Assembly (NCBI GenBank): GCA_951799425.1
Contig: OX637391.1
Coordinates: 48,889,069-48,953,068, forward strand
Direction: 5' to 3'
Source: Ilex aquifolium
Lineage: Eukaryota > Streptophyta > Magnoliopsida > Aquifoliales > Aquifoliaceae
DNA: 64,000 nucleotides
Shown here: positions 12,216-45,543 of the stretch, piece after piece
Numbering within the stretch: the stretch's first letter is position 1
Layout: the number at the start of each line of letters is the position of its first letter
Notes under the pieces: model-generated
Told to the model about the DNA's origin: nothing
Databases searched by the model: none
What the model saw: the letters and a program-made list of their open reading frames with translations, nothing else
Program-made: the position numbers and the translations under genes

Positions 12216-12229
12216 CTCCTTCACAGAAA

Positions 12230-18118: not shown

Positions 18119-18127
18119 TTCACTTTA
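18119..18127 (+). repeat. Candidate left target-site duplication of copy X
   Basis: TTCACTTTA here matches TTCACTTTA at 45544-45552 exactly. Nine bases is the usual MULE duplication length (8-11 bp). The match sits 1 nt outside the left ACTACGG and 7 nt outside the right CCGTAGT. A longer but imperfect match (14 of 16) also exists, so the exact termini are uncertain. Confidence 0.5.
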
Positions 18128-18128
18128 G

Positions 18129-18170
18129 ACTACGGTACAGCCAAATGAATTTTGGGTGTGATACCGAAAT
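18129..18170 (+). repeat. Left terminal inverted repeat of copy X
   Basis: It starts ACTACGGTACAGCC and ends GATACCGAAAT, matching the reverse complement of 45496-45536 at about 36 of 42 positions with one gap. Confidence 0.75.
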
Positions 18171-18359
18171 TCAATGTCCAACGTAGATCTGTCTAACAAG
18201 AAAATTGAGCCGTTGATTAATGTGTCCTTTCAATGTTATTTAATTTTTTTATTTTTTCAAAGAGTTACCGGTTACCGGTTGGATACCGGTTGCTAGACAT
18301 GTCAGATAGTACATATGAGGACTAGGAATTTTGTAACATAATGAAAGGAATATTTACAA

Positions 18360-18990
18360 ATTGAATGGATTGTATACCAAATTTTTGGGTATATTTACAA
18401 CTTCAATGGATCATTTACCACTTTTATGGGAATATTTACAACTTCAATAGATCATTTACCACTTTTATGAGAATATTTACAACTTCAATGAATCATTTAC
18501 CACTTGAATGGATCATTTACCACTTTTATAAGAAAATTTACAACTTCAATGGATCATTTACCACTGTAATGGATTTTTTACCAAATTTAAGGCAATACTT
18601 AAAACTGAAATGGATCATTTATCACTGTATTTTTACGATATTTAATACTCCATGATCGATCATTAAATATGATCGATCGATCATATTTTAACGTAATATA
18701 TGAGTAACCCAAGAAGATATACAACTTCAATGGATCATTTTACCACTTTTAAAGGAATATTTACAACTTTCATGGATCATTGACCACTTTTAAGGGAATA
18801 TTTACAACTTGAATGGATCATTTACCACTTTTATAAGAATATTTACAACTTCAATTGATCATTTACTACTTTTATAGGAAAATTTACAACTTCAATGGAT
18901 CATTTACCACTTTTATGAGAATATTTACGACTAGTAGAGAGTAGCATTTACTAAAGCAATGGTATTTTTTACAAAAGTTAATAGTCCATG
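18360..18990. repeat. Short tandem repeats next to the left end of copy X
   Basis: Units of about 40-45 bp based on ATTTACAACTTCAATGGATC and ATTTACCACTTTTATGGGAA, repeated about a dozen times, with two palindrome sites near 18652-18680. This is the inverted counterpart of 13430-13610. Confidence 0.85.
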
Positions 18991-21010
18991 ATCGATCATT
19001 GAATATGTTTGATCGATCATGACACTCAGGTGAGTTCGTAAGTAATGGCTAATCCAATAATATATACAACTTGAATGGATCATTTACCACTTTTATGGGA
19101 ATATTTACAACTAGTGGGGAGAAGCATTTACTAAAGCAATGGTATTTTTTACAATATTTAATCGTCCATGATCGATAATTTAATATGTTTGATCGATCAT
19201 GCCACTCAGGTGTGTTCGTAAGTAATGGCTAATCCAATAATATATACAATTTTAATTGATCATTACCACTTTTATAAGAATATTTACAACTAGTGGGGAG
19301 AAGCATTTACTAAAGTAATGGTATTTTTTACAATATTTAATGGTCCATGATCGATCATCGAATATGTTCGATCGATCATGGCACTCAAGTGTGTTCGTAA
19401 GTAATGGATAATCCAATAATATATACAATTTGAATGTATCATTTACCACTTTTATGAGAATATTTACAACTATTGGGAAGAAGCATTTACTAAAGTAATG
19501 GTATTTTTTACAATATTTAATGGTCTATGATCGATCATCGAATATGTTCGATCGATCATGGCACTCAGGTGAGTTCGTAATTAATGGATAATCCAATAAT
19601 ATATACAATTTGAATAGATCATTTACCACTTTTATGAGAATATTTACAACTATTGGGGAGAAGTATTTACTAAAGCAATGATATTTTTTACAATATTTAA
19701 TGGTCCATGATCGATCATCGAATATGTTCGATCGATCATGGCACTCAGGTGTGTTCGTAAGTAATGGATAATCCAATAATATATACAATTTGAATGGATC
19801 ATTTACCACTTTTATGGGAATATTTACAACTATTGGGGAGAAGCATTTACGAAAGCAATAGTATTTTTTACAATATTTAATGGTCCATGATCGATCATTG
19901 AATATGTTCGATCGATCATGACACTCAGGTGAGTTCGTAAGTAATGGATAATCCAATAATATATACAATTTGAATGGATCATTTACCAATTTTATGAGAA
20001 TATTTACAACTATTGGGGAGAAGCATTTACTAAAGCAATGATATTTTTTACAATATTTACTAGTCCATGATCGATCATGGAATATGTTCGATCGATCATG
20101 GCACTCAGGTGTGTTCGTAAGTAATGCATAATCCAATAATATAATACAATTTGAATGGATCATTTACCACTTTTATTGGAATATTTACAACTATTGGGGA
20201 GAAACATTTACTAAAGCAATTGTATTTTTTACAATATTTAATGGTCCATGATCGATCATGGAATATGTTCGATCGATAATGGCACTCAGGTGAGTTCGTA
20301 AGTAATGGATAATCCAATAATATATACAATTTGAATGGATCATTTACCACTTTTATGAGAATATTTACAACTATTGGGGAGAAACATTTACTAACGCAAT
20401 GGTATTTTTTACAATAGTTAATGGTCGATGATTGATCATGGAATATGTTCGATCGATCATGGCACTCAGGTGAGTTCGTAATTAATGGATAATCCAATAA
20501 TATATACAATTTGAATGAATCATTTACCACTTTTATGTGAATATTTACAACTATTGGGGAGAAGCATTTACTAAAGCAATGGTATTTTTTACAATATTTA
20601 CTAGTCCATGATCAATCATTGAATATGTTCGATCGATCATGGCACTCAGGTGTGTTCGTAAGTAATGGATAATCCAATAATATATACAATTTGAATGAAT
20701 CATTTACTACTTTTATGGGAATATTTACAACTAGTGGGAAGAAGCATTTACTAAAGCAATGGTATTTTTTACAATAGTGAATAGTCCATGATCGATCATT
20801 GAATATGTTCGATCGATCATGGCACTCAGGTGAGTTCATATGTAATGGATAATCCAATAATATATACAATTTTAATGGATCATTTATCACTTTAATGGGA
20901 ATATTTAAAACTAGTGGGGAGAAGGATTTACTAACGCAATGGTATTTTTTACAATAGTTAATGGTCCATGATTGATCTTGGAATATGTTCGATCGATCAA
21001 TATGTATTAT
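18980..21010. repeat. 180-bp tandem repeat with paired palindromes, left array of copy X
   Basis: Eleven to twelve units in regular 180-bp steps. The pair near GATCGATCATGGCACTCAGG recurs at about 19011, 19191, 19371, 19551, 19731, 19911, 20091, 20272, 20452, 20632 and 20812. The units are inverted relative to 12230-13440 of copy Y. Several palindromes carry single changes (GATAATT, GATTGATC), showing independent decay of units. Long minus-strand frames through the array are repeat artefacts. Confidence 0.95.
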
Positions 21011-21330
21011 GTGATGGAGCAAATTCGAATTACATGAATTAGATCGATCACACATAAATTCTGATCGATCATACTGTCACAGTTGTTTCAATCAGAGTAT
21101 GAAAAGTACTGTGGCGGTCTGATCGATCGTATAAAAAAATGATAGATCAAATATGTACAAAACTCGAATTTGATCCATCACAGAATACTTATTTGATCTA
21201 TTATTTTTGTACACGATCGATCAGACCGCCACAGTACTTTTAAAACTCTGATTGAAACAACTGTGACAATATGATCGATCATAATTTATGTTTGATCGAT
21301 CTAATTCATGTAATTTAATTTTTTAATTAA
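21010..21330. repeat. Large inverted repeat at the inner edge of the left array
   Basis: Two arms of about 150-160 bp meet near 21172. Each arm contains the sequence around CAGACCGCCACAGTACTTTT, TCTGATTGAAACAACTGTGAC and several palindrome sites. A single, non-inverted version is at about 12035-12215 in copy Y. The arms would form a strong hairpin in single-stranded DNA or RNA. Confidence 0.75.
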
Positions 21331-21735
21331 TTCATGTAATTTAATTTAATTAAAATATTAAATATAATTTAATTTAATATTTGATCGATCATAAATTTAT
21401 TAGATCGATCAAATATTGTAATGGATTATTCGATCACTGAATAATGATCGATCGTGTACATATCAACAAGTTAACGATCAATCAAATTGTAGTGATCGAT
21501 CAGTTAGATAGATCTAAATTGGTCACATTCTGAAAGTTAGTGATCGATCACTTAGTTATTCGATCTATCATTAACATTTTGCCACTTCATAATCGATCAT
21601 TTATTTTGCGATAGATCAAGGTAGATGTGTTGTTGTACCAGAAGAATGGTTTTTCAGTCCCTCATATTAGCGGGTTAAATGTGGTAGGATGAAACTATTC
21701 GATCGATCGTATATTAGTTTGATCGATCGGAAGTT
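21331..21735. repeat. Scattered palindrome sites before the HMG-Ulp1 gene
   Basis: About ten further GATCGATC-type sites in AT-rich DNA, ending with a pair at 21700-21730. Beyond these, about 21740-22490, lies the presumed promoter and 5' leader of the next gene; the first exon and start codon could not be placed. Confidence 0.75.
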
Positions 21736-22492
21736 ATTTTTTTTCCCAGGCTGAACGACGTTGTTTAGTGTTTATTTCCATACCAACCAATCAGGTTGTG
21801 ACAACTAGCTACAACAGTTCCTTCCTATTTCCTCTATAATCCCGCCAAAAACCACTACCCAGCTCCCTCCATCCTCTAAACATTGAGCTCACTGGTCTCC
21901 TCTTTCTATCTTCCAAAAAATCACCACTCCCCTATTCATCCAACTCCATCTTCTTTGTTCCGAATTCTGTGCCTCCCTCTGCATCACAATCTTTTTATTC
22001 CTTGCAATATGGGTTTGAGGTCATAAGTATCCCCTTTCAGTATTCCAAAAAAGGTTTGTATTGGTCTACGTAGAAGTGTGTACACTCCTCCTCATTTGTC
22101 TTAGTTTCGGCTTGTTGTGATTAACGACCAAGAGGAGATACATAATAAGATATCATCAAATTAGTAGTGAATCTATGAAATGTTATTTTTTATAAATGGT
22201 ATGTTTTCAGTGTTTGACATCTCTGTGTGTGTCATAATTGGAAACATTTACGTACTGGTAATGATGTTATAGTTGTGAATGAATGTGTTGGTGAGTGAGT
22301 GTGTATGAGAAGGATTTCTGACTGGTTTAGAGAAGTGTATGTGTAGCATATACTTATTTATATGACCTATATACCATGTGTTATTTGCAGGGTAGTAGCA
22401 AGGCAATAGACTTGGGAAGTCCAATTTGGCGATTTTTGTAATATAAGATATGATTATATTGTTGAATATATTTCAGATTCATCACATTTCAG

Positions 22493-25400
22493 ACTTCATA
22501 TTATGGTAGATATTCCAGGGGGAAGAAGAGGTCACAGGAGTCAAAGGCCGAAGGCTTGAAAGCACAACGTCCACCTACTGCATGGCTATTTTTCTAGTAT
22601 GAAAAATTTGTGTATTGTAGTGTAAAATTATTTTGTGGTTAATGTATATTTGATAATGTACGCATTTGTTGTACTTCCATTACAGTAAGGAACAAATGCA
22701 GAATATCAAAGGAAACGCTGATCAAAAAGTGACACGCGAGGTATAATTTGTGTTACAAAGAGCGAGTATTGTTTGGAATAGTGAAATTAATAATGTCTTC
22801 CAATTGAACTTGTACTCATAAGGTGATTAAACAACTGGCTGACCAATGGAGGAAGATGGCAGATTGTGAGAAACAGAAATACAAAGAAATGTCTATACAT
22901 GCGAAGAGTGAATATGATCGTGTGAAAGATAATTCTGGGAAAATAACAGTACGGGTAATTATATTATTTCGATGCTAATTTTCACAATTCATCGTTTACA
23001 TTTACTGCACCTCTCCAACTGACATTTCTGTCTATGTTTTGACAAATTATCAAAGGGGACGCTTGGTACAAGGTGTTCGCCTGGGAAAATTGTAAAAATG
23101 ATACGACTTTTATGTGATGAGCAGAAAACTGCAATAAAAGAACTTGGTTTTGGAGGGATCTTGAGCCTCAAATGTGGGGAACTGAAGCGGGGTTTATGTG
23201 CATGGTTGATTGAACGGTTTGACACTGTGTCATTGACATTAAATGTGTACGGTGAAGCTATTCAGTTATCAGCCCTGGATGTTGAATGTGTCATGGGTTT
23301 GAGAAACGAAGGCTTGGACGTGGAGACTATTGGGCCCAGTGAAAGAATTAATGGCATTTGGAATTCATTATTCAATGGCGTTAAGGATATCCCGTTGAGA
23401 CATGTGAGTGAGAGACTTTGTGTACTTAAAGTGGCTTCGGATGAGTTTAGGATATATTTTGTGCTATTTCTTATTGGACATCTTCTATACCCAACCATGC
23501 GTACTTCAATCAGCAGCGGGTATCTTCACAGTGTTGTAGACGTTCCTTCTATAGGAAAGAGAAATTGGGCGAAATTTGTATTTGATGGTATGGTTGAAGG
23601 GGTACGAAAATATCAAACACGTGATCAAAAAAATGTTAGTGGATGTTTACTTGTTCTTATGGTAAGGCATCATTTTATTTTTTTAGTATTTTTATGTTGT
23701 GCTTGTTTCACAAAACTTTTACTAAATGACCTCGTTTATTTTTTTAATGTAGATAGTATATCTAGAGCGGGTCACACCCAAAACGGTGTTTGTTAAACAA
23801 CCGCCATGTAGGAGCAACCATCGAATTGCTGCATGGGGGGATGAGGAAATTAAGAAACATGTAAGCATGTTGAATAAGTCCAAATGACTAGCATGTCAAG
23901 AAGTTACTTGCAAAGTTTTGGACGACACCATGAATAAACCCCAACCAGTCGCTACAATAAAGCTTAGTAAATGATCCACCCATGAAGTGAAGCAACCTAT
24001 TTTGACATCAGATGAAAAACCACCGGTACGTATATACCATGATACTGAAATCACATTGATTTATAATAAGTTAAGGACACGTGATTAATTGTGTAAATGT
24101 GTAGGAATGGGAGACCAGAATGGTTAAGATGGAGAATGCGATTGTTAACCTTACTGGCATGGTGGGGTCAATGGTTAACATGATGCAAATGTTCATGGGT
24201 GGATCGTTTCCTAAACCATCAAATTACCAAGACATAGAGAATGATGCTGCTATCGGAGAAGTTGATGAGAAAAAAAATAAAATTGACTTGAATGAAGGCG
24301 TAAATGCCAATTCCCGGAATGAAGTGGATGTGGACTACCGGATTTGGACACCCATTGCCGCTATCCACACCCCACCACCAAAACCATTCCAGGAGGCACG
24401 ACGACGGCCAGTGAATACTGACAATGACGGTTACAAACAGAATGACGTTGGTGACATGCAAGAGGCTTCTTACTCATGCACCCAAACATCGTTCCCACCA
24501 ATGCAGCTAAGAAGAGATTCTAAACGGAGGCCAAGCAAATATGTGATTTCACCATATGAACAACCAAAGGTATAACATACATCAAACTTACTGTATTAAT
24601 TAATTACATTATACGTTATCCTCACTTATATTTTACTCCCTTTAACCACAGAATCGTTGGGTGAAGAAGGATGATAACAAAGAGGGCAAGGGGGAGGTGA
24701 ATAATCCCTCGGATCACATTCAAGAAATGGACAATTCCATGCATAAACAATTAATGCCTAAGGTTCTGACATCAGTTATTATTATTATCCAAGGTTTTGT
24801 ACATGTTTATGTTCAAATTATCTATGCACAGGGCGGTTACAACATGAATTGTTATGACAACAAGGCATCGATCGATGTGTACAAGACTCCGTACAAATCT
24901 GCTAACAAACTGAAATTGTCTTGTACAAGTGCATCAGTTGCTGAAATTCATAAGGTATGTTTTTTTCCATTATTGATTATGTGACAAACTTGAATGGTAG
25001 TTTAATGACACAGATTGGGGAAACAGATTTCAGATTCTACTTTGGGTATTCCACAGCACGTTGAGGAATATGCAAATGTAGACATACTGTATCCTGAAGA
25101 TAAGCAATTGATTCTGAATTACATATTTGACAAGAATCTTGACATGAGGTATCTTTATTTTTAATGTACCAATTGATACAATTTAAAAAATTAATTACTA
25201 TGTGAGCGAAAGTATTTGTATGCTTACCGGATTTGTGTGTAATATTAATTTTTTTTTTCAAACAGAGAGGATTTGATTAGGTTTGAACATGACCATGCTG
25301 GACGCCACTGTCTCATGACACTATTACCAAAGCAGTGGTTACTTGATTCTGTTGGAATATTAGGAACAATTTTTTATTTTTTTCAAGTTTTATCCATACG

Positions 25401-26382
25401 TCGGTACCATAACTTAAACCACTGGCAATTTACTTTTGTATTTTTCCAATGACTGTCACAGGTTGTGGATTTGGCGCACAATTTGTTATCTAATGAAGAT
25501 AAGACAAATCCAAAAACTGGGTTAGAGAGGTGGTATCTACCCACATGGTTCTCGGTAATAAAATTGTGTTTATTTGTAGGACCTAATTATTTTATTTAAA
25601 AAAAAAAAAATACATACAATATGTTGATTATAAATTTGTTTGTTGTATTCAGCAACAGGCATTGGCTCGTGCTGGAACGGCTGACAGTGCAAGTAAAAAA
25701 GCTTTGCTTCAATCTATGTGTGCTGCGAATGGGAAGTACATAAAAGATTTTACATACTGTGACAAGGTCTGTATTAACCATATAATTAATCCTTTTTTAT
25801 TTCAAATGTCTAACATTAGTTACATTGATCCACGCTTATTAACAATGTTTTGCTGTGTAAACAAATTTAGATATACATCCCGATCAACGAGAACAACTCC
25901 CATTGGTATCTATGCGTCATTGACGTAACTGAACAGAAAGCTCTTTTGTTGGACCCGCTTCCTGGTGACGATATTTCAACTCGGCTGAATGTTGTGCATA
26001 ATGTGGTCTTTGAATTAGATGATGTCCTTGAAGCTACACATCATAACTACCAACCTTATTTGGGAACATTCACTTTGTCCGCACCGTCTTGGGCCCCACG
26101 TCAGGGGAATGCATATGATTGTGGAATGTTTGTTGTCAAGATGATCCTGGCTCCAGTGCTTTGTCTAGGCTTTAGCATTAAGGTGAAATATATAACATAG
26201 GCAACCTACGACATGTCGCGATTGTAATTCTATAATTTGTTTATATCCCTCCTGTAAGCGCATTTTGTTAACAAGGTGGTATCATGTTATCGCAGGAAGA
26301 TTCGAATGAAATGCGGATGAACTTTGCGTTTTCATTAGCTACTCACGCTGACAACAAAGTTCGCAACAAACTCATACATTAG
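22493..26382 (+). CDS. HMG-box / plant-mobile-type domain / Ulp1 (C48) SUMO-protease protein
   Basis: Fourteen exons with GT-AG borders join in one frame to 838 codons: 22493-22596, 22686-22740, 22823-22954, 23056-23661, 23753-23860, 24105-24569, 24652-24762, 24832-24954, 25027-25148, 25266-25350, 25462-25554, 25653-25766, 25871-26182, 26296-26382 (stop TAG). The N-terminus is open; an upstream start exon is not identified. Exons 1-3 encode an HMG box (PPTAWLFFYKEQ, then LADQWRKMADCEKQKY, then AKSEYDRVK). Exon 4 is a helical domain starting GTRCSPGK, homologous to that of 29505-32440. The C-terminal C48 domain has NSHWYLCVID (His 25901-25903), LLLDPLP (Asp 25952-25954) and RQGNAYDCGMF (Gln 26102-26104, Cys 26120-26122), a complete Ulp1 catalytic set. 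It probably cleaves SUMO or a like protein in the nucleus and binds AT-rich or bent DNA; function is inferred. Ulp1 cargo is known in MULEs such as Kaonashi. Confidence 0.8.
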
Positions 26383-28490
26383 GCGCGAGAACGAGGGATA
26401 GAAACGGGGAAATGTAGAAGTATATTAGCAGGAATGTGAGAATGGGTTCGGTATGTATATAGTGGAATACAATGTGCTTTGTTAGACGGGATGTATATAT
26501 TGGAATACAAAGTTGCCTGAGAGCTGGAATGTGCTTTGATAGGCATGATATATTTATTGGAATACAATGTTTATTGGTGAATGAAATGTGCTTATGTATT
26601 CGGTATTTATATACTGGAATACAATGTGGACAGTTTTAAGGAAAAGATACATGTTATTGAGTAGAACCAAAATACCAAGAAACAACACTTGTTAACAAGA
26701 AATAGCTTAGCCAAGATGATGGCTTTAATCCTTCAAGAAAATATAATATGTCAAAAAATCATTCTTGAATCACTTTTACTTTTTCATATGTGTGAAGTCA
26801 AAAGCTACTACATATGGGTAATAACCGTGAATATAGCTATAATGAACAGAATATTTAATCAATGTTACTTTTTAAGATCTGTGCAGTCAAAAGCTAGTAT
26901 ATCTGTCGGTAATGAAAAGTTTGCAGTGGGTTTGATGTGAGTCAAGTCATTCCGTGTGAATACTTGATACGCGTCTCATTGGATGCGGAGAAACACGTGT
27001 TGTTAAATTTTAGTTGACGTAAATATATAAATTTTTTTTTTTTGTAAAAGAGGAAATTTATTCCAAAAAATTGAAGACTTTACAAGAAGCAAAGAACAAA
27101 AATGTTCTAAAGTGTGGGAGTTGGCTTTAATCCTTCAATGGATTAACCCAATCCTAATTACGGTATGAGTATCCAAAATTAAACCAAAATCTGCCAAAAA
27201 AATCAGACAAAACAAGCAGAAATTAATGACCTATATCTAATAAATGTGCTCCAGTGAAAATCATTGGCAGCTGAAAACACCCATTGTAGGAAGCAGCTGT
27301 AATCCACTTCATCAGCTTTCTGAAGCTGGGAGACACATAATTCAACTGAGCTGAGACGTCAGCTGAGAGCTCAGCTGATAATTATTGAGCAGCGAGCAAG
27401 TCTGATAAAGAAACATGAAAAGTCAGCAGATAAGGCATTCTCCTTATCAATATGAAGCCCTGCCTCTTTAATAGACTGTTGATCTTTCGTTAAAAAATCA
27501 ACGAAGAGACTCTGGTTCAGAAGTCGAAGAGAAAACCGGCTGGGCAGCTGTTAAGTCCCTAAAGAGAGAGCTTGACACCGATGCTCCGCTGCCCAACCAG
27601 TGGCATATGCATTACCCTGCACAATTGCATCATGCGAACATTCACACCACCAGTATGCCATAAATTGGTTACTAGCTAAAGAGAAATGCATTGATTTGCG
27701 GGATATCATCAACCATGTCTGACACATGAATTTATCCTATTGATCTACCTTACCATTGTCATAATATACCGTCTATAAATATGTGCAAATTATAGACATA
27801 TTTTATTAATTAACCTCCCAAATTACAAGAATCAAAAAAATCCCCTACCTATTACAACAGAAAACAGTTACAGCTTCACTGTACACATTAGCAAACTTTT
27901 ACAATCAAAGACGTTAAAAAATTCATGTTCAGCTGTTGCAGTCCATATCATCAGCATACCAGCACCCACATTCTGTACAGCAGACCATGATACATGCTGA
28001 ATCCACAGAAAACACATGCCGGTCAATTAACACAACCTCCTAATGTTTACAGTAGGCCTGAGGTGTATCTTGCTGCAAAAGCATGTATCAAGCCAATGGC
28101 AGAATACCTGCAGCTGGAAAAACACTAAAGCCACCAGACTTAACGGGGATCAATAAGCCAAAATAAGGCAGCTACAACATTAGCCTCCCTGTACACATGT
28201 CTACACTTTACCTGCAGTAATTACAAACAAACTCCCCAATCTCATCCATAACTCCTTTCAACCTCCAAAACACTTTAGCATGCCCTCACATCTTCATATC
28301 TTCTCCTACACCTTTCTTTACAAAGGGCCCAAACAAATCAACATGCAAACCCCAAAAATTAAAAACAGGTATACATTAAATGAATCGTAAGTATAGCACA
28401 AAGTGCAAACTGAATTGAGGCCCAAAAACTAAAGACCACATGCAAAATAATTTACTGCAACCAACAAAGAAGGGAGAATCACAGCACTGT
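26383..28490. other. Non-coding stretch after the HMG-Ulp1 gene
   Basis: The first 250 bp hold about four irregular repeats of a TATATA-TGGAATACAATGTG word (26455-26630), probably in the 3' untranslated region. A second region, 27030-27140, is a minus-strand retroposon 3' end. Copies of TGGCTTTAATCCTTCAA stand at 26720-26736 and 27122-27138. The rest, to 28490, shows no recognisable gene. Confidence 0.45.
27030..27140 (-). mobile_element. Retroposon 3' end (probable LINE) with poly-A
   Basis: A T-run at 27032-27043, then on the complement an AATAAATTTCC polyadenylation-like segment, TTTGCTTCTTGTAAAGTC, and TTGAAGGATTAAAGCCA. It is homologous to the ends at 9266 and 41755 but more diverged. 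Confidence 0.45.
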
Positions 28491-28499
28491 TTAAAAATT

Positions 28500-29090
28500 T
28501 TAATTTCACTTCGATTAGAAACCATGAATGCGTTGTTTTGGCACACCACCATAACTTGCAGGTGTAACATTGCCACTTCCATAATCTGGAGGAACATTAC
28601 TACAATGACAATATGTCATGTCAACGGCCAAATATATTGCATTTAAATCACTCACCAGCTGCACCACAACTACCACCTCCCTTCCAGTACACCCAGTCAT
28701 ATGAAGCTACATCCATATGACTGTCCCTAACCATTCATTAATGGTCTGGGGCAATGCGTACAGCTATGGCCAGGACCACCGCAACTGATACATGTCCACA
28801 TACATGCCAGCACAACTATTCACCAAATCTAGAAGAAACCTAGTCTCGGACGATAAATTTACTATCTATGCTTTGACTACATTCGACTTTACACGTTCTT
28901 CATCAGTAAATGTCTCCTCCTTCACTTTCATTTTGAATAAATAGTTCATAAGTCCACGTTGACACCTATCACATCGCCACTGAAAATCTCCATTATTTGT
29001 AACCTTCTTGTTGCACAATCTGGTTGTATAATTGGTCAGCCATATCATTAAAACTGCTTCCTTATGTTTTGCCCTGTAAACAACCAAGCC
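28500..29090 (-). pseudogene. RPA70-like C-terminal fragments (zinc ribbon and CCHC knuckle)
   Basis: On the minus strand an exon-like frame (28866-29087) reads LCNKKVTNNGDFQWRCDRCQ followed by LFKMKVKEE. This resembles the zinc-ribbon OB fold at the C-terminus of the large RPA subunit, where CNKKV and a second CxxC are conserved. About 100 bp downstream (about 28760-28800) a frame reads CISCGGPGHSCTHCP, a CX2CX4HX4C knuckle as found at the end of some plant RPA1 proteins. The first CxxC of the ribbon is incomplete (TTRLC) and no continuous gene can be assembled, so this is probably a decayed or captured RPA-like gene. Helitrons are another known carrier of RPA-like genes; no Helitron end was recognised here. 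Confidence 0.45.
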
Positions 29091-29504
29091 AAAAAACTCA
29101 CATCAGCACCACTACTACCCAGGGACATCAACAATGTTTGCAGCAACTATACCTGATTATTTATCAGCAAAACAAACAATCACATGCTTCACCTAATTTG
29201 AGGCAGACAGTTGCTACGCTGCAATCATAGATAGATGTTCATATGAGCACGTTGTCAAACTCTTAAATAATGTGATTTCTGCAAGTCAAAATATAGTATA
29301 ATTGATTTGTTTGTATGCATCTGCCTAAATACAGATCCACCGTTACAAATTCAATTCAATATTGATTAAAATGTGCAGAACCGTATATACATCTGTCTAA
29401 AACTGTAACTGTACATATGAAAGAAAACAAAGAATGTAATCAGTTTGTCCACCACCATCAGATACAGGTGTCTTCCTCGACTCTCAAATGAACCAATACA
29501 CACG

Positions 29505-33090: not shown

Positions 33091-33210
33091 TGAGTTTTTG
33101 TGTCTATGGGTGTTTGTGTTTGAGTGTTTGTGTCTGTGGGTGTTTGTGTTTGAGTGTTTGTGTCTGTGTGTGTTTGTGTTTGAGTGTTTGTGTCTGTAAG
33201 TGTTTGTGTA
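33091..33210 (+). repeat. 30-bp minisatellite, four units
   Basis: Four consecutive 30-bp units of the type TGAGTGTTTGTGTCTGTGGG followed by TGTTTGTGTT. Confidence 0.95.

Positions 33211-36013: not shown

Positions 36014-36018
<5 letters not shown>

Positions 36019-36067
<49 letters not shown>
36019..36067. repeat. (TA)n microsatellite
   Basis: About 24 uninterrupted TA units. Confidence 0.95.
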
Positions 36068-36069
<2 letters not shown>

Positions 36070-36887
36070 AAATTCCAATTCGCTCATGTGCATAATTTTT
36101 AAGCTATCTTTTTTAGAACAATGTAAGTCAATCAAATGTTCCATCGAAAGGAAGCAAGAAACGAACCTTATCGAGGAGGAAATTAGGGAAGAGCTGGTTG
36201 GTGGTGAGCTGTGTGTGTGTTTGGGTGAGGTCTGTGTGTGTGTTTGCGACTGGTTGTCGTGAAAGAGAGAGAGGGAGAGAGTGAGTGAGAGAGGAGGGTG
36301 TACACAAATATAAACACCCATTGTAAAGACATCTCAATTAAAAATACCCAAATATAAAAAAAGCCAAATTTAAAACACCCAAATTAAACACAAACATTGA
36401 AAAACCCAAATTGAATGTTGTTGCGTTGTGTTAATATGTTTGCTGCTGTGTGTATGTGTGTGTGTTTGTGTTTTCCCAAATGAATTAACACCCATTCCAA
36501 TCAAAATAACCCTAACATTAACTTTTAAAGATCCAACGGTCAATTGCAAACCTAAATTCCAAGTCCATGTTATAAAATTAACATCAAATTTGAAAATAAT
36601 GAAATCAACATCACAAACCTTAACATCCAATTTCATACAAAATTGAAAAAAATGAAATTAAAGCCCAATCGTAATCAAATAAACTTAACAACATTAAATC
36701 AAATACCATTAACAACTACAAAACCCTAACTATGAAAAATCTTACAATCCTATCATTTAAAACTCATCAAACCATTATGAGAAAACACCCAAATTAACAC
36801 CCAATATGAGAAAATTCATTGAAAAGTTACAAAATTCCCAAAAATATCAAACCAATACAAAACACCCAATGTTGTGTGTGATGCTGT

Positions 36888-36938
36888 GTTTGTGTGTGTG
36901 TTGTTGCTGCTACTGCTGTGTGTGTGTGTGTGTGTGTG

Positions 36939-36983
<45 letters not shown>
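36888..36983. repeat. (TG)n-(GA)n compound microsatellite
   Basis: TG-rich sequence running directly into about 21 GA units. Translated frames here are low-complexity artefacts. Confidence 0.95.
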
Positions 36984-36986
<3 letters not shown>

Positions 36987-37350
36987 CCTGAAGAGGGAGG
37001 GGCCTGAGTCTGGTCTTCTTCCGCAGAGGAGCGAGAGGTGAGAGATTGAGAGAGAGAAAAGGAGAGTGTTTGAATTGGGTTGCTTGGGGGTGCCGTGTGG
37101 GTGTAGCTTTAATGGGCGGGAATTTTTTTTCGGTTGAGATGCATTGCAAGCCATTGGATTGAAATAGAAGAAGTGAGATGAAATGTGGGCCTTTGAATTA
37201 AAAGTGGATTTAATCTGAGCCATCCTTGTGCTTTCCCAAATAAATTAAAATTGAGTTAAATTTTAAAGTGGAAAAAAATTCAAATTGGGTTCTATCTTAT
37301 TAGTATAGATAGATAACTTAATTCGATTTTAATAATTAAAATAAAATATT

Positions 37351-38329
37351 ACTATATTCCAACTAACATAACATGTAATATAATTCATCCAAATAAATTT
37401 ATAATTGGAATTAAATTAAGCATAATAATTGATTAAAATAATAAACAAAATTGGAACCAAATATAAAAAAGTGTAAACTAATCCAATCAAATGCGTATAT
37501 ATATTAAAACTAATTTGTTAACGGAATTACAATAATGTGAAACACATATACGCCACGATTAAACGACAACAATCATAAAGAATTAAGCAGCTTTTCATAT
37601 GATAAAATTTCTCAGTCATGTGGTAAACAGGTTAACCCGTCATACACGTTTATTAAGTAGTTAATTTTTAGGTGATTCCTGTCAACCCTTTTCATACTCG
37701 CCTATCCATTTAATAACATTAATATAATAATATCGTAATAATTACTATTAAAATGTTATCCACAAATTTGTTTTTTTAAATGCCAAAAAAATAAATAAAT
37801 ATATATATTGTATTTAGTTACACCCGTAGAATTTACAACTGTTATGAGTGTATTTGAACTCAATTGTGGTAAATGGGTTACAATTTTGATGAAAAGTCAT
37901 GCAACCTTAATTGTAATTTATTACATAACATTAACAGCTTCCAACCACATACAAGACTGAATTTACTGACCCTCACCTACCTGTAATTACCATTTAGGCA
38001 TTTGGGAAGGCAAAAAGATTTGTAATAGCCGTGAACTAACTTCCAACAACACATATCCTTGCTTAACTATCTACATCTGCCTGAGAGGAGGAGAGGAAAT
38101 CCCACAGGTATGTCATACATGATACCAATTATTTTGAATGTCATTTATTTTGAATACATTAGATTAATGTTTGATTATGTGTTCCTTACAGTAATTGAAT
38201 TATTTTAATAAATATATGTCCATCAACAATTTTTTTTTTTCATTTACTTTCCCATAATTTTCACTTTTTGTAAATAATTATAATAATAATAATAAATAAT
38301 AAATATGTATTTTAGGTTTCACGCATAAA
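37351..38329 (+). promoter_or_regulatory. 5' region of the copy X transposase with leader intron
   Basis: Homologous to 4501-5486. The leader intron probably runs from the GTATGT donor at about 38108 to the TTTTAG acceptor at about 38315, just ahead of the ATG at 38330. Copy-specific changes are mostly substitutions and short indels. Confidence 0.5.
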
Positions 38330-40693
38330 ATGGCTCATACTGGCTTAGAAAAGGGAAAGAATGTCGTTATAGACTTGAATGAAACACCTGATGATAGAGA
38401 AATTTATGAGGTTGACACATGGAATGGTGAATATGAACATCGTCACGGTAAATCAACTTCGGCTACGTTACAACCCCTTGAAATGGAAAAAACTTTACAA
38501 GACTTATCGGCTGCGGAAGTCAGTGAAATGAAGTTTAACTCGGAAGATGAAGCAGGTAATTTTTATAACACATACGCAAAGTTTGTAGGTTTCAGCGTCA
38601 GGAAAGACGACTTAAAATATAACAAAAACCACGTACCGGTATCAAGGAAGTGGGTATGTTCGCGACAAGGGTTTCGAGCTGCAAAATACTTAGACAGAGA
38701 TGAAAGGGCACGGGAACCAAGGGGAATAACTCGAGTTGGTTGTTTGGCGGTATTCCGCATTAAGTATGACAGAAAGTCGGAAACTTGGGTAGTAAAAGAG
38801 TTTGTGAATGATCATAATCATCCGTTGGTTCCACCGAGTGGAGTGCCGTTCCTTCGGTCCCACCGCCGTGTTCAAAGCCTAGACATAGAGCAAGCAACAA
38901 CACTTCACAGTGTTGGAATACGCACTAGCCAAATACGAGATTTTATGTTGCATCAAGCTGGCGGCTACCAAAATGTTGGCTTTACGCGAAAGGATTTGTA
39001 CAACGCTGTTGCAAGCCAAAGAAGAGAGGAAATGATCGATGGGGATGCTGAAGGTGCACTAGCATACTTGAGCGCAAAAGAGGAGTTAGACCCATTATTT
39101 TATTTCAGGTACAGTGTTGAAGATGATAATTCATTGAATTGCCTCTTTTGGGCGGATTCAACTTCTCGTGTTGACTATTCATGTTTCGGTGATGTATTGG
39201 TATTCGATACAACATACCGCACCAATGCGTACAAAAAGCCATTTGTCATACTTGCAGGTATAAACAACCACAATGCTACTTGCATTTTTGGATGTGCATT
39301 ACTTTCATATGAGACTGTGGACACATATGTGTGGGTGTCGGACACATTTCTTGATGCAATGGAAAATAAAAAGCCTATATCAGTTGTCACTGATGGGGAC
39401 AAGGCCATGGCCGCCGCAATCGAAAGAATTTTTCTAGATGCAAAACACAGACTATGCATCTGGCATTTGGAGAGAAATGCGCTTCAAAATATTCATGCTG
39501 AAAATTTTCTTCGCGAGTTCAAGAACTGTATGTGCTGCCGATGTACACCTGAGGAATTTGACGTTATGTGGGAATCAATGGTACATTCATTTGGCCTAGA
39601 GGATAACAACTGGATATCAGAAGTGTACACAAAGCGTTGGAAATGGGCTGAAGCATTCTTGCGGGGTCATTTCTTTGGCGGCATCAAAAGCACGCAACGC
39701 TCAGAAAGCTTGAATGGTTACTTGAATCGTTTCTTGAAAACAAGGCTACGTTTGTATGAGTTTGTTAGACAGTATGATAGGGGTGTCTCAAGAATCCGAG
39801 AGACTGAAGCCTATGACACCCATTATTCTGAAAACATTACACCAGTGTTGACCACTTCACTATGCTGCTTAGAGCAGCACGCTGCATCACTGTATACCAG
39901 GTCAATATTTTTTAAAGTGCGGGATCATATAAAGGCCGAAGGACTCTTCTTCGTGGTCCAAAAAATTCAGCACAGTAGTCATTCCAGTTATTATCTGTCG
40001 AAGTACACAAAACCAACATCCAGTTGGAATGTGATATATGATTATCAGAATCACACCATCCTCTGCAATTGCCAGAAATTACAATCTATTGGAATTCCTT
40101 GCTCACACATCATAACAGTTTTGAAAACTGAACACATAACAGAGTTCCCTCCTAGTACTATTGTAAAGCGATGGACAATTATTGCAAAATCAGCTTGCCC
40201 ACCGACCTTTGTGCCTCAAACATCAAGAACCATTTCAATTTCTTGCCGATATGCTGGATTAATGTCAATGTGTAGCCGGATGTGTTACTACGCATCCCAT
40301 TTGCATGAGGACACACAGGAGCTTCGAACAACAATAACTGTAGTAACCAACCGCATGAAACAACGTCATGATACACGGGAGGCAAGACAGTTGTCATCAT
40401 CACATCAAGATTATAATGTGTCGAACATAAAATTTGGTGTCGTCGATCCCAAGACAGTGACAACTAAAGGGAATCCGGGCCGTGTAAGGAAGAACCTACC
40501 AATAGCTCTGGGACGATGTAGTAAATGTCGTGGCACTGGACATACTATTCGTAAGTGTCCGCAGCTTACGTGCAATGCGAACGACCCACATGATGACATG
40601 CCCTTCTCACAACCTGGTGGCTCCCAACATCCCATGGCATCAACTCAAGAAGACGACCATTGGAATCCAACTTACAATTACAATGTCCTCTGA
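38330..40693 (+). CDS. FAR1-type MULE transposase, intact
   Basis: A single uninterrupted frame of 787 aa. Domains in order: FAR1 DNA-binding zinc finger (about 67-167; Cys110, Cys138, His162, His164), MULE transposase core with a DDE-like set (Asp293 in FDTTYR, Asp355 in TDGDKAM, Glu459 in RSESLN; HRLCIWHL at 373-380), SWIM zinc finger (Cys579, Cys581, Cys591, His593) and a C-terminal CCHC knuckle (Cys730, Cys733, His738, Cys743). The family cuts and pastes DNA; domesticated relatives are the light-signalling regulators FHY3 and FAR1. Association with terminal repeats, a second copy and accessory genes favours a transposase over a host FRS gene. The ATG at 38330 opens directly after the leader-intron acceptor. 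The frame is intact and all metal-binding residues are present, so it could be active. Confidence 0.93.
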   Translation: MAHTGLEKGKNVVIDLNETPDDREIYEVDTWNGEYEHRHGKSTSATLQPLEMEKTLQDLSAAEVSEMKFNSEDEAGNFYNTYAKFVGFSVRKDDLKYNKNHVPVSRKWVCSRQGFRAAKYLDRDERAREPRGITRVGCLAVFRIKYDRKSETWVVKEFVNDHNHPLVPPSGVPFLRSHRRVQSLDIEQATTLHSVGIRTSQIRDFMLHQAGGYQNVGFTRKDLYNAVASQRREEMIDGDAEGALAYLSAKEELDPLFYFRYSVEDDNSLNCLFWADSTSRVDYSCFGDVLVFDTTYRTNAYKKPFVILAGINNHNATCIFGCALLSYETVDTYVWVSDTFLDAMENKKPISVVTDGDKAMAAAIERIFLDAKHRLCIWHLERNALQNIHAENFLREFKNCMCCRCTPEEFDVMWESMVHSFGLEDNNWISEVYTKRWKWAEAFLRGHFFGGIKSTQRSESLNGYLNRFLKTRLRLYEFVRQYDRGVSRIRETEAYDTHYSENITPVLTTSLCCLEQHAASLYTRSIFFKVRDHIKAEGLFFVVQKIQHSSHSSYYLSKYTKPTSSWNVIYDYQNHTILCNCQKLQSIGIPCSHIITVLKTEHITEFPPSTIVKRWTIIAKSACPPTFVPQTSRTISISCRYAGLMSMCSRMCYYASHLHEDTQELRTTITVVTNRMKQRHDTREARQLSSSHQDYNVSNIKFGVVDPKTVTTKGNPGRVRKNLPIALGRCSKCRGTGHTIRKCPQLTCNANDPHDDMPFSQPGGSQHPMASTQEDDHWNPTYNYNVL

Positions 40694-40896
40694 TATAAGG
40701 TTTCATACATTATCACCTTTTACTTACTTTTGGAAATTCTGTACATACCAACAAGGTTTTGATTTCCATTTTTTAATTTTTTTAATAGCAATTGATATAC
40801 TGCATTTTGGCGGATATATGTGCATTGTGCAATGGATTGAAACTTGTTTTGGCATATGGTTTGACTGGTTGCAGGTTTGAAATTTAATGTGATTCA

Positions 40897-41480
40897 TTGA
40901 TTTTGGTGAATGCTGTTCTAGGTATTTGTGACTGTCCTTGGACATGTTTGAGCTATTTGAGACAGATCAGTGGCTTCTTGAGGGGTCTGGCTTATATATT
41001 GGTGCATATTTTTCGTGAGGCAAATGCTGTGGCTGATAGTCTTCATGGGCATGCAGTAAAGAGTAGGAATTCGGTTGATTTTCCAATGGGTTTGACATTG
41101 CCTTGTGATGTTACATTGGATCTGTCATCTGATCAACAGAGTCTCCCTGTGTTGCAAAAAAGAAGGAAGAAAACCTACGATGATAAGGGGTAATAAGAGC
41201 TGCTGATGGGGAGCTTTTTGTCTTGGATGATTAAGTGTTGATTTGTTTGAAACAAGGGAAAAAGATAAAAAACTCTTTATTGTTGATATGTGCTTATGGA
41301 TTTGGACTATGATGAGGAGTTTTGCTGAAAATTTAGACTTTGCTATTGTGTATTTTTGGCTTTGCATTGTTAGTTTTGGCTTATACTGCTTATGGATGGG
41401 CGTCTGTGCCTTTTCCTTTGTTTCTTGTAAATATTTTGCATTATGAATAAATATAATTCCCTTTTGATTAAAAAAAAAAA
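40897..41480 (+). mobile_element. LINE 3' end (RNase H remnant plus poly-A), copy X
   Basis: The counterpart of 8060-8993 with a single copy of the 172-bp unit. The frame keeps FREANAVADSL, with the Asp expected at the end of a LINE RNase H domain, and is followed by AATAAA and a poly-A run (about 41470-41479). Confidence 0.55.
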
Positions 41481-41754
41481 GATCCCTGCTTTTGATTCAA
41501 TTGTGCACGGGCAGTAGATTAATACTTCTTTAAACATTTTTTAGGTGAGCACGACTACATGTGATTGTCTCATTGCCTTCAGTTATTTGCTACACACTAT
41601 TCCACGATTTTATTATCATACTGCACTGAATACTTTTTGCACTGTTTAACGTGTACACATATGGCCACTGAAATATTCTGGGATAATCACCCTATTGCTC
41701 TACGGCAGCTGACGCCATAATACAGCTTTCTTAAAGTTGCATGGAAGGTTCAAC

Positions 41755-42080
41755 TTCTTTTTTTTTTCAAAAAGTGGAAATTTTATTGATCGAATAAGTA
41801 ATTACAAGAAGCAAAGAACAAACAGTTCCTACAAAATTCAAAAATGGCTTTAATCCTTCAAGATTATTAAAACCATTGCAAGCTACAAAATTGTGTCTTC
41901 TGATCTTCACTCCAGCTCCTGAACTTCCACACAACTCCTCATGCAGAATCCCCAGATCAGAAACAAACCAGTACAGCACCCATGCAGTCCCAGCTAGTTT
42001 GCTATGTACCCAAACTAAGCTCCTGCACCTTTGCTCACAGCCCATGTCACAGCAGACCAGCAGTCTATAAGAATATCATA
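41755..42080 (-). mobile_element. Poly-A-tailed retroposon 3' end, copy X
   Basis: The counterpart of 9266-9620: a T-run at about 41758-41768 followed by the same sequence, including TGGCTTTAATCCTTCAA at 41845-41861. Between it and the next gene, 42081-42374, the sequence is shared with copy Y and has no gene. Confidence 0.4.
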
Positions 42081-42374
42081 CAACTACTGAAACAAAGCAA
42101 TACAACAAACCAGTCCAGCAGCCAAGCATAAAGACCAACTGCCCAGACATAAAAGTTGCCCAGACAGTCTGCTATAATATAGATCATCACAAAAGTTGGC
42201 TTTAATCCTTGAACAGCAAAAGAGGCCAAAAAATCAGCTACAACATGTCAACATTTCTAACAACAACCCAATATATTTAACAACCATCCACCCAACATCT
42301 ACAACAACCTTTTCCAAAATGCCAAATATTACTATAAAACAAAAGATTCACCAAAAACCCCCAAAACCAACGTG

Positions 42375-43514
42375 TCATTTGTTGATGTACTCTTTAAAGT
42401 CCTTATAAAAACAATCTAATTTTGACTCCAGACGTTGTAACGACCCCTTCGTTTCATCCTCGAACTTTTCAAATCGGGCCTCCAACTTTTCAACCATTTG
42501 CTGAAGTGTTTGTTGAACCTCAGTAGTACCAACATCAGAACCACCTTGACTAGGCCCAGCTTCACTGCCCACAACCTCAGACACCGCAGGTGGCTGCTTC
42601 ACACGCTTCCCCCTTTTCCCTTTACCCAAAATCGCTCCCACACTTTTATTAAGTGTACCCATACCCATTGCATTCATGGGGTACATAAAACTGTCAATAT
42701 GCTGAAATTCAACCCCATTATGCTTCAAAATCTTGGTAATTAATATTGGAAATGGAAGACATGGCCTGCAATCCTCGACGGTAGATGATTCGCGAACATG
42801 GTTGAATATGTAAAGGGGTAGATCAATAATAACCCCATGTTCACCAATAGCATATAATAGTTGGGCCGTATCATATCCAATCTCAGCAGTATGCCCCCTT
42901 GGATGAATATTACAAGCAACAATTCGGTTTATCATCCTAAACGTTGGAGTAAGGTCAATGTGAGCAATTTTGCTTTTCTCATTCACCCAATTGACACTCC
43001 CAATACAAATATGTCGAATAACCGTCGACATTTCGGGAACCTGCTCCTTACTTGAGTATGGAAAGACAATGGAATTCTCAGGAATGACTGGTCTATCAAT
43101 TTTTATTATTTTTGAGATAAGATCAGGCGATACAGTTATGGCTTTCTTCCTAACCATTGTCTTAAATGTCAGCTCATTCTCTTTGTAGTCATGAATATTT
43201 GCATAAAAAAACCTAACAAGATCAGCATATGCTTTATTTTCCACATTCACTTCAAACAAAGGATCCCATTTTCGAGCCCGAAGTATTTCAGGACAGTCCA
43301 CACTTCCTATTAGCTCATCAAGGTAAACACCACGCTCAAGTATAAGAGGACGTTTAACAATTAATGTATCATACCTCTTCTTCGCATCATTATCCACAAA
43401 CAGTTTCGCATTGCCAGCACTGCCCCCCGTAGCCACCTTCTTCCGTTTCTTCGTCTCTCCACCCGACATTAGCAAAGCTCCAAAGGGATTCACAACGAAC
43501 AATGGAAGATTCAC
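42375..43514 (-). CDS. Coiled-coil 'plant transposon protein' of the giant MULE, copy X
   Basis: An intact 379-codon frame with the same length and layout as 9889-11028. The likelier start is the internal ATG at about 43467-43469 (MSGGETKKRKK), giving about 364 aa. The conserved domain (ERGVYLDELIG, LVRFFYANIH, FPILITKILKHNGVEF) is followed by a basic patch and a heptad-rich C-terminus (QQTLQQMVEKLEARFEKFED). It runs convergently with the transposase and its 5' end faces the palindrome array about 450 bp away, so it is placed to be expressed from, or to act on, that end. This resembles the position of accessory genes in other two- and three-gene MULEs. Its biochemical function is not known. 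Confidence 0.75.
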   Translation of the reverse strand: MNLPLFVVNPFGALLMSGGETKKRKKVATGGSAGNAKLFVDNDAKKRYDTLIVKRPLILERGVYLDELIGSVDCPEILRARKWDPLFEVNVENKAYADLVRFFYANIHDYKENELTFKTMVRKKAITVSPDLISKIIKIDRPVIPENSIVFPYSSKEQVPEMSTVIRHICIGSVNWVNEKSKIAHIDLTPTFRMINRIVACNIHPRGHTAEIGYDTAQLLYAIGEHGVIIDLPLYIFNHVRESSTVEDCRPCLPFPILITKILKHNGVEFQHIDSFMYPMNAMGMGTLNKSVGAILGKGKRGKRVKQPPAVSEVVGSEAGPSQGGSDVGTTEVQQTLQQMVEKLEARFEKFEDETKGSLQRLESKLDCFYKDFKEYINK

Positions 43515-43780
43515 AATGAGAGATTCACAATGGAAGATTCAAAACGAACAATGGAAGATTCACAACGAACAATGGAAGATTCACAATGGAAGTAGTGTGT
43601 ATAGGCATCGCATTTGTGTACCCGATCTCATGAAATGTATTTCGGGTGGTTGGCGATTTTTGGTTTATGGAATTCGGAGATTTTGATTGGGTTTTGTAGG
43701 ATTTGGAATTGGTTTTTCAGTATTTGGAATGGATTTGGAATGGATTTTTCTTGGTGTACAGGATTTGGAATGGATTTTTG
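43495..43780 (-). repeat. Short direct repeats upstream of the coiled-coil protein gene, copy X
   Basis: Four to five units based on AACAATGGAAGATTCACAA (43495-43590), one more than in copy Y, and then GGATTTGGAATGG repeats (about 43698-43780). Confidence 0.6.
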
Positions 43781-43939
43781 AATGGCTTCGGTTGGCGTGA
43801 GTTGATTAGGGCTTATTTCGTGCGATTTGGGGATTTATTTGTGGATACTGCGATGTTAATTTAGTACAATACCCCCATTACAACGCTTCAATCAATTCCT
43901 CTTTGAGGGCATTTACGTAAATACATAATACCTGATCGG

Positions 43940-44954
43940 TCATATTTACTTTCGATCGATCAAAATTCCACTTGCCCATTCAACTTCTACCTCAATAACT
44001 CAATGATCGATCAATATACATGTATGATCGATCAGATGTCCCCAGTCAATATGAATTCTGATCTGGAACATTTTGATCGATCAATATAAATATTTTATCG
44101 ATCATATGTCACAGTACTTAAGATCTGCAACAAATTGATCGATCAAATACATATATCTGATCGATCAGATGTCCCCAGTTCTTCAAAGTTCTGATCTTGA
44201 ACAATTTGATCGATCAATATATATATTTGATCGATCATATGTCCAGTACTTAACATCTGCAACAATTTGATTGATCATAATAAATATATGATCGATCAGA
44301 TGTCCCCAGTACTTATGAGTTATGGTCTGAAACAATTTGATCGATCAATATAAATATTTGATCGATCAGATGTCCCCAGTACTTATGATCTTCAACAATT
44401 TGATCGATCATTATAAATATATGATCGATCAAATTAACTGATTACATACTGATCTATCATATTTTTTAAACGATCGATCAAATATCCCCAGTATTTCTTT
44501 TACTTCTGATTCACGTTAGAAATCTGGAACAATTTGATCGATCAATATATCATTCTGATCGATCGATTACAATTACAACTGACTGACCTATCCAATTTTT
44601 TTACCGATCGATCGGATATCTACAGTGATTATTTACTGGGCAAATCTGCGATGATCGATCAATATATAATTTTTATCGATCAAATTCAATTACTAAAAAG
44701 ATCGATCAAATTTTTAAACGATCGATCATTTCGTCCCAGTACTTTATTAATTCTGATTCACTTTCAAATCTGCAACAATATGATCAATCAATATGTTTTA
44801 TTTGATCGATCAAATTTACTTACTACTTACTGATCTATCATTTTTTGTACACGATCGATCAAATTTATAATTTTGTTAACTTCCCAATAATTTTGCAAAA
44901 CCACCTTATTGAGCAAATATGATCGATCATTCATATTTGTGATCTGTCAAATTA

Positions 44955-44994
<40 letters not shown>

Positions 44995-45115
44995 GCCCCA
45001 AAATTCCTTTTTCTTAACCCACAGTCCTTAACACATAATGATCGATCATATTTTTATTGGATCGATCAATATGTAATGATCGATCTAATATCACATTGAT
45101 CGATCCATTCAGGTG
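43940..45115. repeat. Palindromic TGATCGATCA array (right subterminal, copy X)
   Basis: About 25 palindrome sites, many paired at 21-22 bp centre-to-centre with AT-only spacers. The 180-bp tandem units of copy Y and of the left end are absent here. A (TA)n-T run interrupts the array at about 44952-44993. The remaining 45116-45400 holds degenerate TTGTAAATATT and TTCGTAA words without palindromes. Confidence 0.9.
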
Positions 45116-45495
45116 CCTATAGGTATATTATCCTCGTAAATTTATCCACTATGGTTGTAAATATTTCTTTAATTTTGTATCCATCCCAACTACTATTGTA
45201 CATTTTTTACTAATGTAGTAAATACTCCATTGTCTTTGTAGTTGGTTCCACTGACTTCGTAAGAATATCATTATCTTTGTTATTATACCCATTGTTCTTG
45301 TAAATCTTGCAAGTAATATTGTAAATATTCCATAAACTTCGTAACTCACTCATTGTTATGCTACAACCTTCATCCATTATTGTTGTACGGTTTAAGTCCC
45401 AACAGGTCACTCCGGTTGCCTTTGCTTTACCTTTACACGTGTCCTTTTTTTGCATCATTCTGCAGAGTTTTATTCAACTTTTAACCACCAAAGCC

Positions 45496-45536
45496 ATTTC
45501 GGTACCATACCGAAAAGTCAATGGCTGTACCGTAGT
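45496..45536 (-). repeat. Right terminal inverted repeat of copy X
   Basis: It ends GGCTGTACCGTAGT. It contains a small internal dyad, TTTCGGTA-CCA-TACCGAAA, also present in copy Y. Confidence 0.75.
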
Positions 45537-45543
45537 GTTGTCC

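Follow-up and report, generated by a model that had tools for sequence, protein, structure and literature searches.

A 27.4-kb, probably Jittery-type Mutator-like element of Ilex aquifolium with two Ulp1-type genes and subterminal palindrome arrays

The locus and its two related elements

The stretch of DNA analysed here, referred to below as the window, comprises 64,000 nucleotides of Ilex aquifolium (assembly GCA_951799425.1, contig OX637391.1, positions 48,889,069 to 48,953,068 of the forward strand) and harbors two members of one family of Mutator-like elements (MULEs): element B, a 27.4-kb interval with both termini in the window, and copy A, a relative detected by self-comparison, the left end of which lies beyond the window edge (Table 1). 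Element B carries a transposase gene, two accessory genes with Ulp1-type protease stretches (gene A and gene B, both within element B), a gene for a PF20167 protein, pieces of a high-mobility-group (HMG) box and of replication protein A (RPA), and subterminal arrays rich in the palindrome GATCGATC. An earlier sequence-only reading of the interval had proposed a single large MULE, and this proposal is well supported by the terminal inverted repeats (TIRs), the 9-bp flanking repeat, and the FAR1–MULE transposase, as well as by copy A, whose right end falls on the same base. That reading had missed three features: copy A, the piece of an HMG box, and the fact that the gene at 42378-43538 matches PF20167.

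The termini of B are inverted, as had been claimed. Of the 42 columns in the TIR alignment, 36 match, 5 mismatch, and 1 is a gap, a score reached by none of 20,000 random 44-mers drawn from the window, and ACTACGGTACAGCC is identical at both ends (18129 on the plus strand, 45536 on the minus strand). The outer 12-mer by itself is unremarkable, with four window sites at up to two mismatches versus 1.84 expected and with 8 of 100 shuffles reaching four. The 9-mer TTCACTTTA, already noticed as common to both flanks, has just two copies in the window, at 18119-18127 and 45544-45552, and the chance frequency of a common 9-mer at such placement is 0.0004-0.0017. Its left copy directly adjoins G-ACTACGG; on the right, 45536 is the last TIR base common to all three termini available, namely B left, B right, and A right.

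Copy A is collinear with B 30559-45536 except for a spacer of 2.4 kb in A and 4.7 kb in B. In the self-comparison, from which matches below 60 columns and 89 array-to-array matches were omitted (long ones excepted), A 1-2051 pairs with B 30559-32602, and A 4478-12200 with B 37328-44688; identity over the three aligned interior blocks is 94.2, 92.4, and 96.2%. Farther right, identity falls to 66% between A 13315-13777 and B 45076-45536, and the homology ends at the TIR (13777/45536); the right end of B is therefore fixed independently. Copies ending at different places had been named in advance as grounds for rejecting the single interval; copy A ends at the same right base, a result that concerns the right end only. 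With the homology breaking off precisely at the right terminus, two unrelated insertions are unlikely, and B is very probably one MULE insertion. Within the spacer, no clear homology was found between A 2052-4477 and B 32603-37327, the flanks being more than 90% identical; a promoter swap and captured DNA are candidate explanations. Among the 232 isolated substitutions between A and B (out of 508), there are 94 transitions and 138 transversions, and the absence of a transition excess is odd for plant transposons. Downstream of the copy A transposase, a 172-bp unit is repeated three times in tandem (8263-8780), and the tandem repeats listed for B include none at the corresponding place (41100-41271).

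Table 1. Features of element B and copy A in the 64,000-nucleotide window
Feature	Position	Strand	Remarks
Element B	18128-45543		27.4 kb
Left 9-bp repeat TTCACTTTA	18119-18127	+	putative target-site duplication
Left TIR	18128-18170	+	(G)ACTACGGTACAGCC...ACCGAAAT; 36 of 42 columns equal to right end
41-bp tandem array	18347-18932	+	14.4 copies
180-bp tandem array	18885-20999	+	11.8 copies; consensus unit with two GATCGATC
Inner left palindrome array	20985-21760	+	outside the 180-bp repeats; inverted repeat 21021-21157/21186-21322
HMG-box piece	22466-22975	+	second half 22808-22975, Pfam E 4.8e-6
Gene A, DUF1985/plant-mobile-domain-like exon	23023-23793	+	sub-cut-off Pfam matches, E 0.0024 and 0.0026
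Gene A, possible middle exon	24105-24572	+	without Pfam match
Gene A, Ulp1 (Peptidase_C48) catalytic stretch	25871-26197	+	E 6.3e-14
RPA large-subunit C-terminal zinc-ribbon fragment	28869-29102	-	PF08646, E 1e-9
Gene B, Ulp1 catalytic stretch	29654-29821	-	E 9.2e-10
Gene B, possible coiled-coil exon	30820-31077	-	by eye; no Pfam match
Gene B, DUF1985/plant-mobile-domain-like exon	31545-32213	-	paralogue of gene A
Spacer between divergent gene B and transposase	32603-37327		
Transposase	38330-40693	+	single frame, 787 codons plus stop; FAR1 and MULE (DDE)
PF20167 ('putative plant transposon protein') gene	42378-43538	-	E 1.3e-28
Right palindrome array	43930-45110		27 GATCGATC
Right TIR	45496-45536	-	column alignment with the other termini
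Right 9-bp repeat TTCACTTTA	45544-45552	+	
Copy A, same family as B	1-13778	+	self-comparison; left end beyond window edge
Copy A, counterpart of gene B DUF1985-like exon	991-1662		
Copy A, transposase	5451-7853	+	one in-frame stop, 6807-6809
Copy A, PF20167 counterpart	9892-11052	-	open frame
Copy A, right arrays	11420-13600		palindromes, then 179-bp and 41-bp arrays mirroring B left
Copy A, right TIR	13736-13778	-	

A FAR1-type transposase

Domains were sought with Pfam in 28 selected open reading frames (ORFs) of B, not in every ORF. The transposase was correctly foreseen as an intact FAR1-type protein: its single 787-codon frame matches the FAR1 domain at the N-terminus (PF03101, E 1.9e-22, 80.2 bits, cut-off 28.1) and the MULE domain (PF10551, E 1.3e-24, 86.9 bits, cut-off 27.6). 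The SWIM match, at 19.5 bits, lies 0.1 below its cut-off of 19.6, and the CCHC zinc knuckle is weak (13.5 bits, cut-off 20.8), with the zinc ligand patterns present in both. The peptides VFDTTY, VTDGDKAM, and RSESLN, at 39200, 39386, and 39698, carry the catalytic DDE residues of a MULE transposase. A MuDR-type DNA-binding model is absent among the seven Pfam families listed, and judged by its predicted domains, the make-up of B is that of the Jittery (FAR1) group. Relatives of the transposase were not confirmed in viral_contigs or genome_contigs, and a sequence comparison with the PDB at E up to 0.1 gave no match. Near the N-terminus, both copies have DLNETP (38372-38389 in B), which fits the plant EAR repression motif DLNxxP.

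Between A and B, the ratio of nonsynonymous to synonymous substitution rates (dN/dS; gapped codons and the stop-containing codon pair excluded) is 0.33 for the transposase (bootstrap 0.23-0.45) and, in gene B, 0.37 for the DUF1985-like exon (0.17-0.76). These values place both under past purifying selection.

Accessory genes

The two Ulp1-type genes are paralogues in mirror-image positions, with DUF1985/plant mobile domain (PMD)-like exons that are 44% identical at the amino acid level and are each followed downstream by an Ulp1 stretch. DUF1985 and PMD weakly match all three such exons at E up to 0.1, the best value being 0.0005. Of the two Ulp1-family genes anticipated from the sequence, both catalytic stretches were recovered, and the full H-D-Q-C set was found only at 25871-26197, where gene A by eye retains HWYL, LDPLPG, and RQGNAYDCG; in gene B, the histidine and aspartate are seen, and the cysteine part was not found by eye. 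The PF20167 gene is an open frame at the corresponding place in both copies. AlphaFold models of the PF20167 protein (mean pLDDT, the predicted local distance difference test score, 32.5 with 2 sequences) and of the DUF1985-like exon of gene A (36.1 with 3 sequences) are unusable; the C-terminal end of the PF20167 protein is a long predicted helix in this low-confidence model.

Other coding pieces are smaller. A possible first half of the HMG box (22466-22594) was recognized by eye and has no Pfam match alone; it is one of ten B ORFs, including some of the spacer, without a Pfam match save one at E 0.076. 'RPA-like pieces' had been announced in the plural, of which one fragment was found, with no further piece in the scanned ORFs. 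Models of the Helitron Rep/helicase matched none of the 28 selected ORFs, Rfam at gathering scores gave no match in 13000-46000, and ARAGORN with the bacterial code gave none in the window. A REAN.VA-type peptide, seen by eye at 40888-41190 (without Pfam match) and near 28150 on the minus strand, resembles the RNase H tails of long interspersed nuclear elements.

Subterminal arrays and a paired palindrome

The GATCGATC palindrome occurs 94 times in the window, and 92 of these occurrences fall in three arrays: 32 in the right array of A, 33 in the left array of B, and 27 in the right array of B; the remaining two, at 21701 and 21721, lie just inward of the B-left array. Under a first-order model, the expected means per array are 0.08-0.26, the largest count being 3. 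The palindromes start approximately 0.5 kb inside the left end of B and approximately 0.4 kb inside the right end and extend over kilobases. The 180-bp unit is present in 11.8 copies at B left and 6.8 at A right, and none is listed at B right; these unequal numbers imply that the arrays expand and contract. The arrays described earlier as mirror images are thus real, but the 180-bp array of B left has its mirror image in copy A, at the right end, while B right has palindromes without it. Simple mirror symmetry of all arrays within B was accordingly rejected.

Successive palindromes are often 20-22 bp apart (34 of 91 spacings overall; 14/31, 11/34, and 9/26 in the individual arrays). Tandem duplication gives many pairs identical spacers; in the B-right array, however, the spacers of nine pairs are all distinct and the spacing is still kept, counting exact motifs only. 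The motif is also better preserved than its surroundings. With gap cells counted separately, the right arrays of A and B differ at 2 of 112 motif positions versus 40 of 379 elsewhere when A's motifs serve as reference (p 0.0018) and at 1 of 104 versus 41 of 387 with B's motifs (p 0.0006), and 16 tandem units have 4 mismatches in 256 motif positions versus 161 in 2613 outside (p 0.001), all of these p-values being weakened because the motif itself may anchor alignments of repeats and because tandem units share descent. The units, 10 from B and 6 from A (of which one is overlong), exclude the last, incomplete unit of each array. Gaps between the right arrays number 0 within motifs versus 40 and 17 elsewhere. 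We thus hold with moderate confidence that the motif is under selection, as far as comparison of these copies can indicate.

The observed/expected CpG ratio in the arrays outside the motif is 0.40, 0.59, and 0.44, that is, depleted; for comparison, it is 0.50 and 0.55 in the flanks and higher, 0.67-0.84, in the coding parts of the element. General hypomethylation of the arrays as a cause of high CpG is unsupported, since CpG is depleted outside the motif.

A putative anti-silencing module and its rivals

DUF1985 is found in VANC proteins, and the short motifs to which these bind lie in non-coding tandem repeats; for VANC21, the motif is 9 bases long (PMC5735166). Ulp1-bearing VANC genes (KIU) are stated to act on related VANDALs (review PMC13317346). 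Because of these precedents, the two DUF1985/PMD-like Ulp1 genes of B may be the counterpart of the VANDAL VANC/KIU proteins. The FAR1–MULE–SWIM transposase would cut at the 42-bp TIRs and reinsert the element with a 9-bp target duplication. At least one Ulp1 protein, as a dimer or tetramer, would bind subterminal GATCGATC pairs about two helical turns apart and clear silencing marks at the ends, allowing the transposase to be expressed and to reach the termini. The products with Ulp1 (de-SUMOylation), HMG (DNA bending), RPA, and PF20167 features may be auxiliary or passengers. That B is an autonomous-looking Jittery-type MULE with a VANC/KIU-like anti-silencing module is, in our estimation, about evenly balanced between right and wrong, and an anti-silencing role of the arrays in particular falls a little short of an even chance.

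Besides the weakened p-values mentioned above, several points count against this reading. The DUF1985/PMD matches are below cut-off (18.3 and 14.4 bits versus 35.1), and the protein predicted to bind GATCGATC is a candidate only. For the PF20167 gene, dN/dS is 0.58 (0.32-1.22), compatible with neutrality. Two smaller motif comparisons point in the same direction as the larger ones and are non-significant (1/32 versus 23/231, p 0.33; 0/24 versus 10/112, p 0.21), and CpG changes in the tandem units are equal, 2/32 inside motifs and 2/32 elsewhere. For the left approximately 12.4 kb of B (18128-30558), which hold gene A and the HMG and RPA pieces, the window offers no counterpart other than that of the terminal array, and nested insertions may be hidden in that part. 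Finally, 7 bp separate the right TIR core from the right TTCACTTTA, possibly as junction filler or as part of a longer right end; target-site duplications of MULEs, 8-11 bp in length, directly adjoin the termini.

The main rival retains the same MULE and regards the arrays as binding sites through which the transposase or a TnpA-like helper such as the PF20167 protein pairs the ends. CACTA subterminal repeats are a precedent, the arrays lie near both ends, the conserved palindromes frequently recur at 20-22 bp, and the PF20167 frame is open in both copies and ends in a long helix (predicted, in a low-confidence model). However, the palindromes begin approximately 0.4-0.5 kb inside the ends and span kilobases, with a varying copy number of the 180-bp unit, and such array dynamics are closer to those of VANC targets than to a compact synapsis site. 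We consider pairing of the ends a possible but rather unlikely function of the arrays.

Doubtful to a similar degree is a smaller MULE consisting of the transposase, PF20167, and gene B, in which the HMG piece, gene A, RPA, and the 4.7-kb spacer would be nested insertions or captures. The lack of clear homology between the spacer 32603-37327 and A 2052-4477, the single occurrence of the left 12.4 kb in the window, and the partial appearance of RPA and of the gene B Ulp1 stretch all fit such a history. Gene A, however, is a mirror-placed paralogue of gene B with its Ulp1 catalytic residues kept, as judged by eye, and the left end of B belongs to the family because its array shares homology with the one on the right of copy A.

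Alternatively, the palindromes could be a neutral satellite grown by unequal crossing-over, devoid of binding function. There are tandem arrays of several periods, recent amplification alone keeps copies alike, and CpG change in the tandem units does not differ between motifs and their surroundings; yet motif columns are better kept than their neighbors, both within units and between copies, although CpG outside is depleted, and pairs with differing spacers hold their spacing, which makes this explanation improbable. Lastly, origin of the two termini from two different insertions, to which the 7-bp right offset and the single copy spanning both ends in the window would lend themselves, is very improbable in view of the matching 9-bp repeat (chance 0.0004-0.0017) and the TIR (0 of 20,000 random).

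Returning to the anti-silencing module, a broader scenario is offered tentatively, and we regard it as unlikely in its entirety: a Jittery-type MULE may have built its own anti-silencing cassette apart from the VANDALs, in which the paired DUF1985-like Ulp1 proteins would read a phased palindrome code, and the protein together with the expandable terminal arrays would set which copies escape. If true, sequence-specific anti-silencing would be wider than the Arabidopsis VANDALs, where the literature examined describes it. The palindrome with its recurrent spacing would be one half of a testable protein–DNA pair and a possible tool for epigenome editing.

Relation to known elements

Ulp1-like regions have been reported in Jittery-like MULEs of grapevine and melon, and in grapevine, Jitvine-1 and Jitvine-2 measure 11.9 and 14.4 kb, the largest MULE being 17.7 kb (PMC2528002). 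The dicot/monocot Jittery group (group 36) is tabulated with one ORF and FAR1, whereas additional PMD/DUF entries appear there under VANDAL, MDR, and other MULE groups (PMC6446971). A role in anti-silencing has been speculated for MULE-captured PMD (PMC5418596). B resembles Jittery-type MULEs such as Jitvine-1 and Jitvine-2 in the FAR1 N-terminus and MULE core of its transposase and, with matches below cut-off, in a putative SWIM/CCHC C-terminus; it differs from what is described of them in its 27.4 kb, two Ulp1-type genes, PMD/DUF1985-like exons, HMG-box and RPA pieces, PF20167 gene, and palindrome arrays.

With VANDAL21 and VANDAL6, B would share a DUF1985(-like) accessory protein, comparable to VANC, and a short motif in fast-changing non-coding tandem repeats (PMC5735166, PMC10398659). 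In contrast to the VANDALs as characterized there, its motif is a paired palindrome rather than YAGTATTAY or AGTTGTCC/AGTTGTAC, it has clear TIRs and a FAR1-type transposase, and its anti-silencing is putative. KAONASHI (KI) elements and KIU likewise have an Ulp1 gene within a MULE; KI-MULEs are described as non-TIR elements with Ulp1 reverse to mudrA (PMC2528002), and gene B is similarly opposite to the transposase. Unlike KAONASHI as reported, B is bounded by TIRs, its transposase is of the FAR1 type, and gene A is co-directional with the latter. PF20167/Transposase_32 is known as an extra ORF of an Athila-type retrotransposon (PMC11728184), a further case of this protein in a mobile element, whereas in B it belongs to a DNA transposon and occupies corresponding positions in the two copies.

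The suggestion of an undescribed lineage therefore needs trimming: Ulp1 in Jittery-like MULEs and MULEs of up to 17.7 kb are in print. Most parts of B have precedent. Its size, double Ulp1 set, HMG and RPA pieces, and paired palindrome arrays, taken together, were not found in a literature search that had most subscription journals outside its coverage.

Neighboring sequence

The 4.35 kb between the right end of copy A and the left end of B contain a plant-type UDP-glycosyltransferase open frame of 470 aa (15761-17170, minus strand), the best PDB sequence match of which is 9imi_A (E 1.3e-168). Together with the PF20167 gene, this frame marks the window as plant DNA. Two copies with interiors more than 90% identical thus flank a glycosyltransferase gene, which bears on the siting of such giants beside host genes. 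Near this gene lies an inverted repeat (17291-17959) with 99-nt arms at 94% identity, possibly a small hairpin transposon. In the right flank of B, where 2 of 10 ORFs have a Pfam match at E up to 0.01, a retrotransposon on the minus strand (58759-60388) encodes reverse transcriptase and aspartyl protease and is gypsy/Athila-like by eye. A repeat of approximately 110 nt, 71-73% identical, is found both inside and outside the elements, at 27034-27145, 41758-41866, and 9268-9375, with 56 nt of it at 14856-14911.

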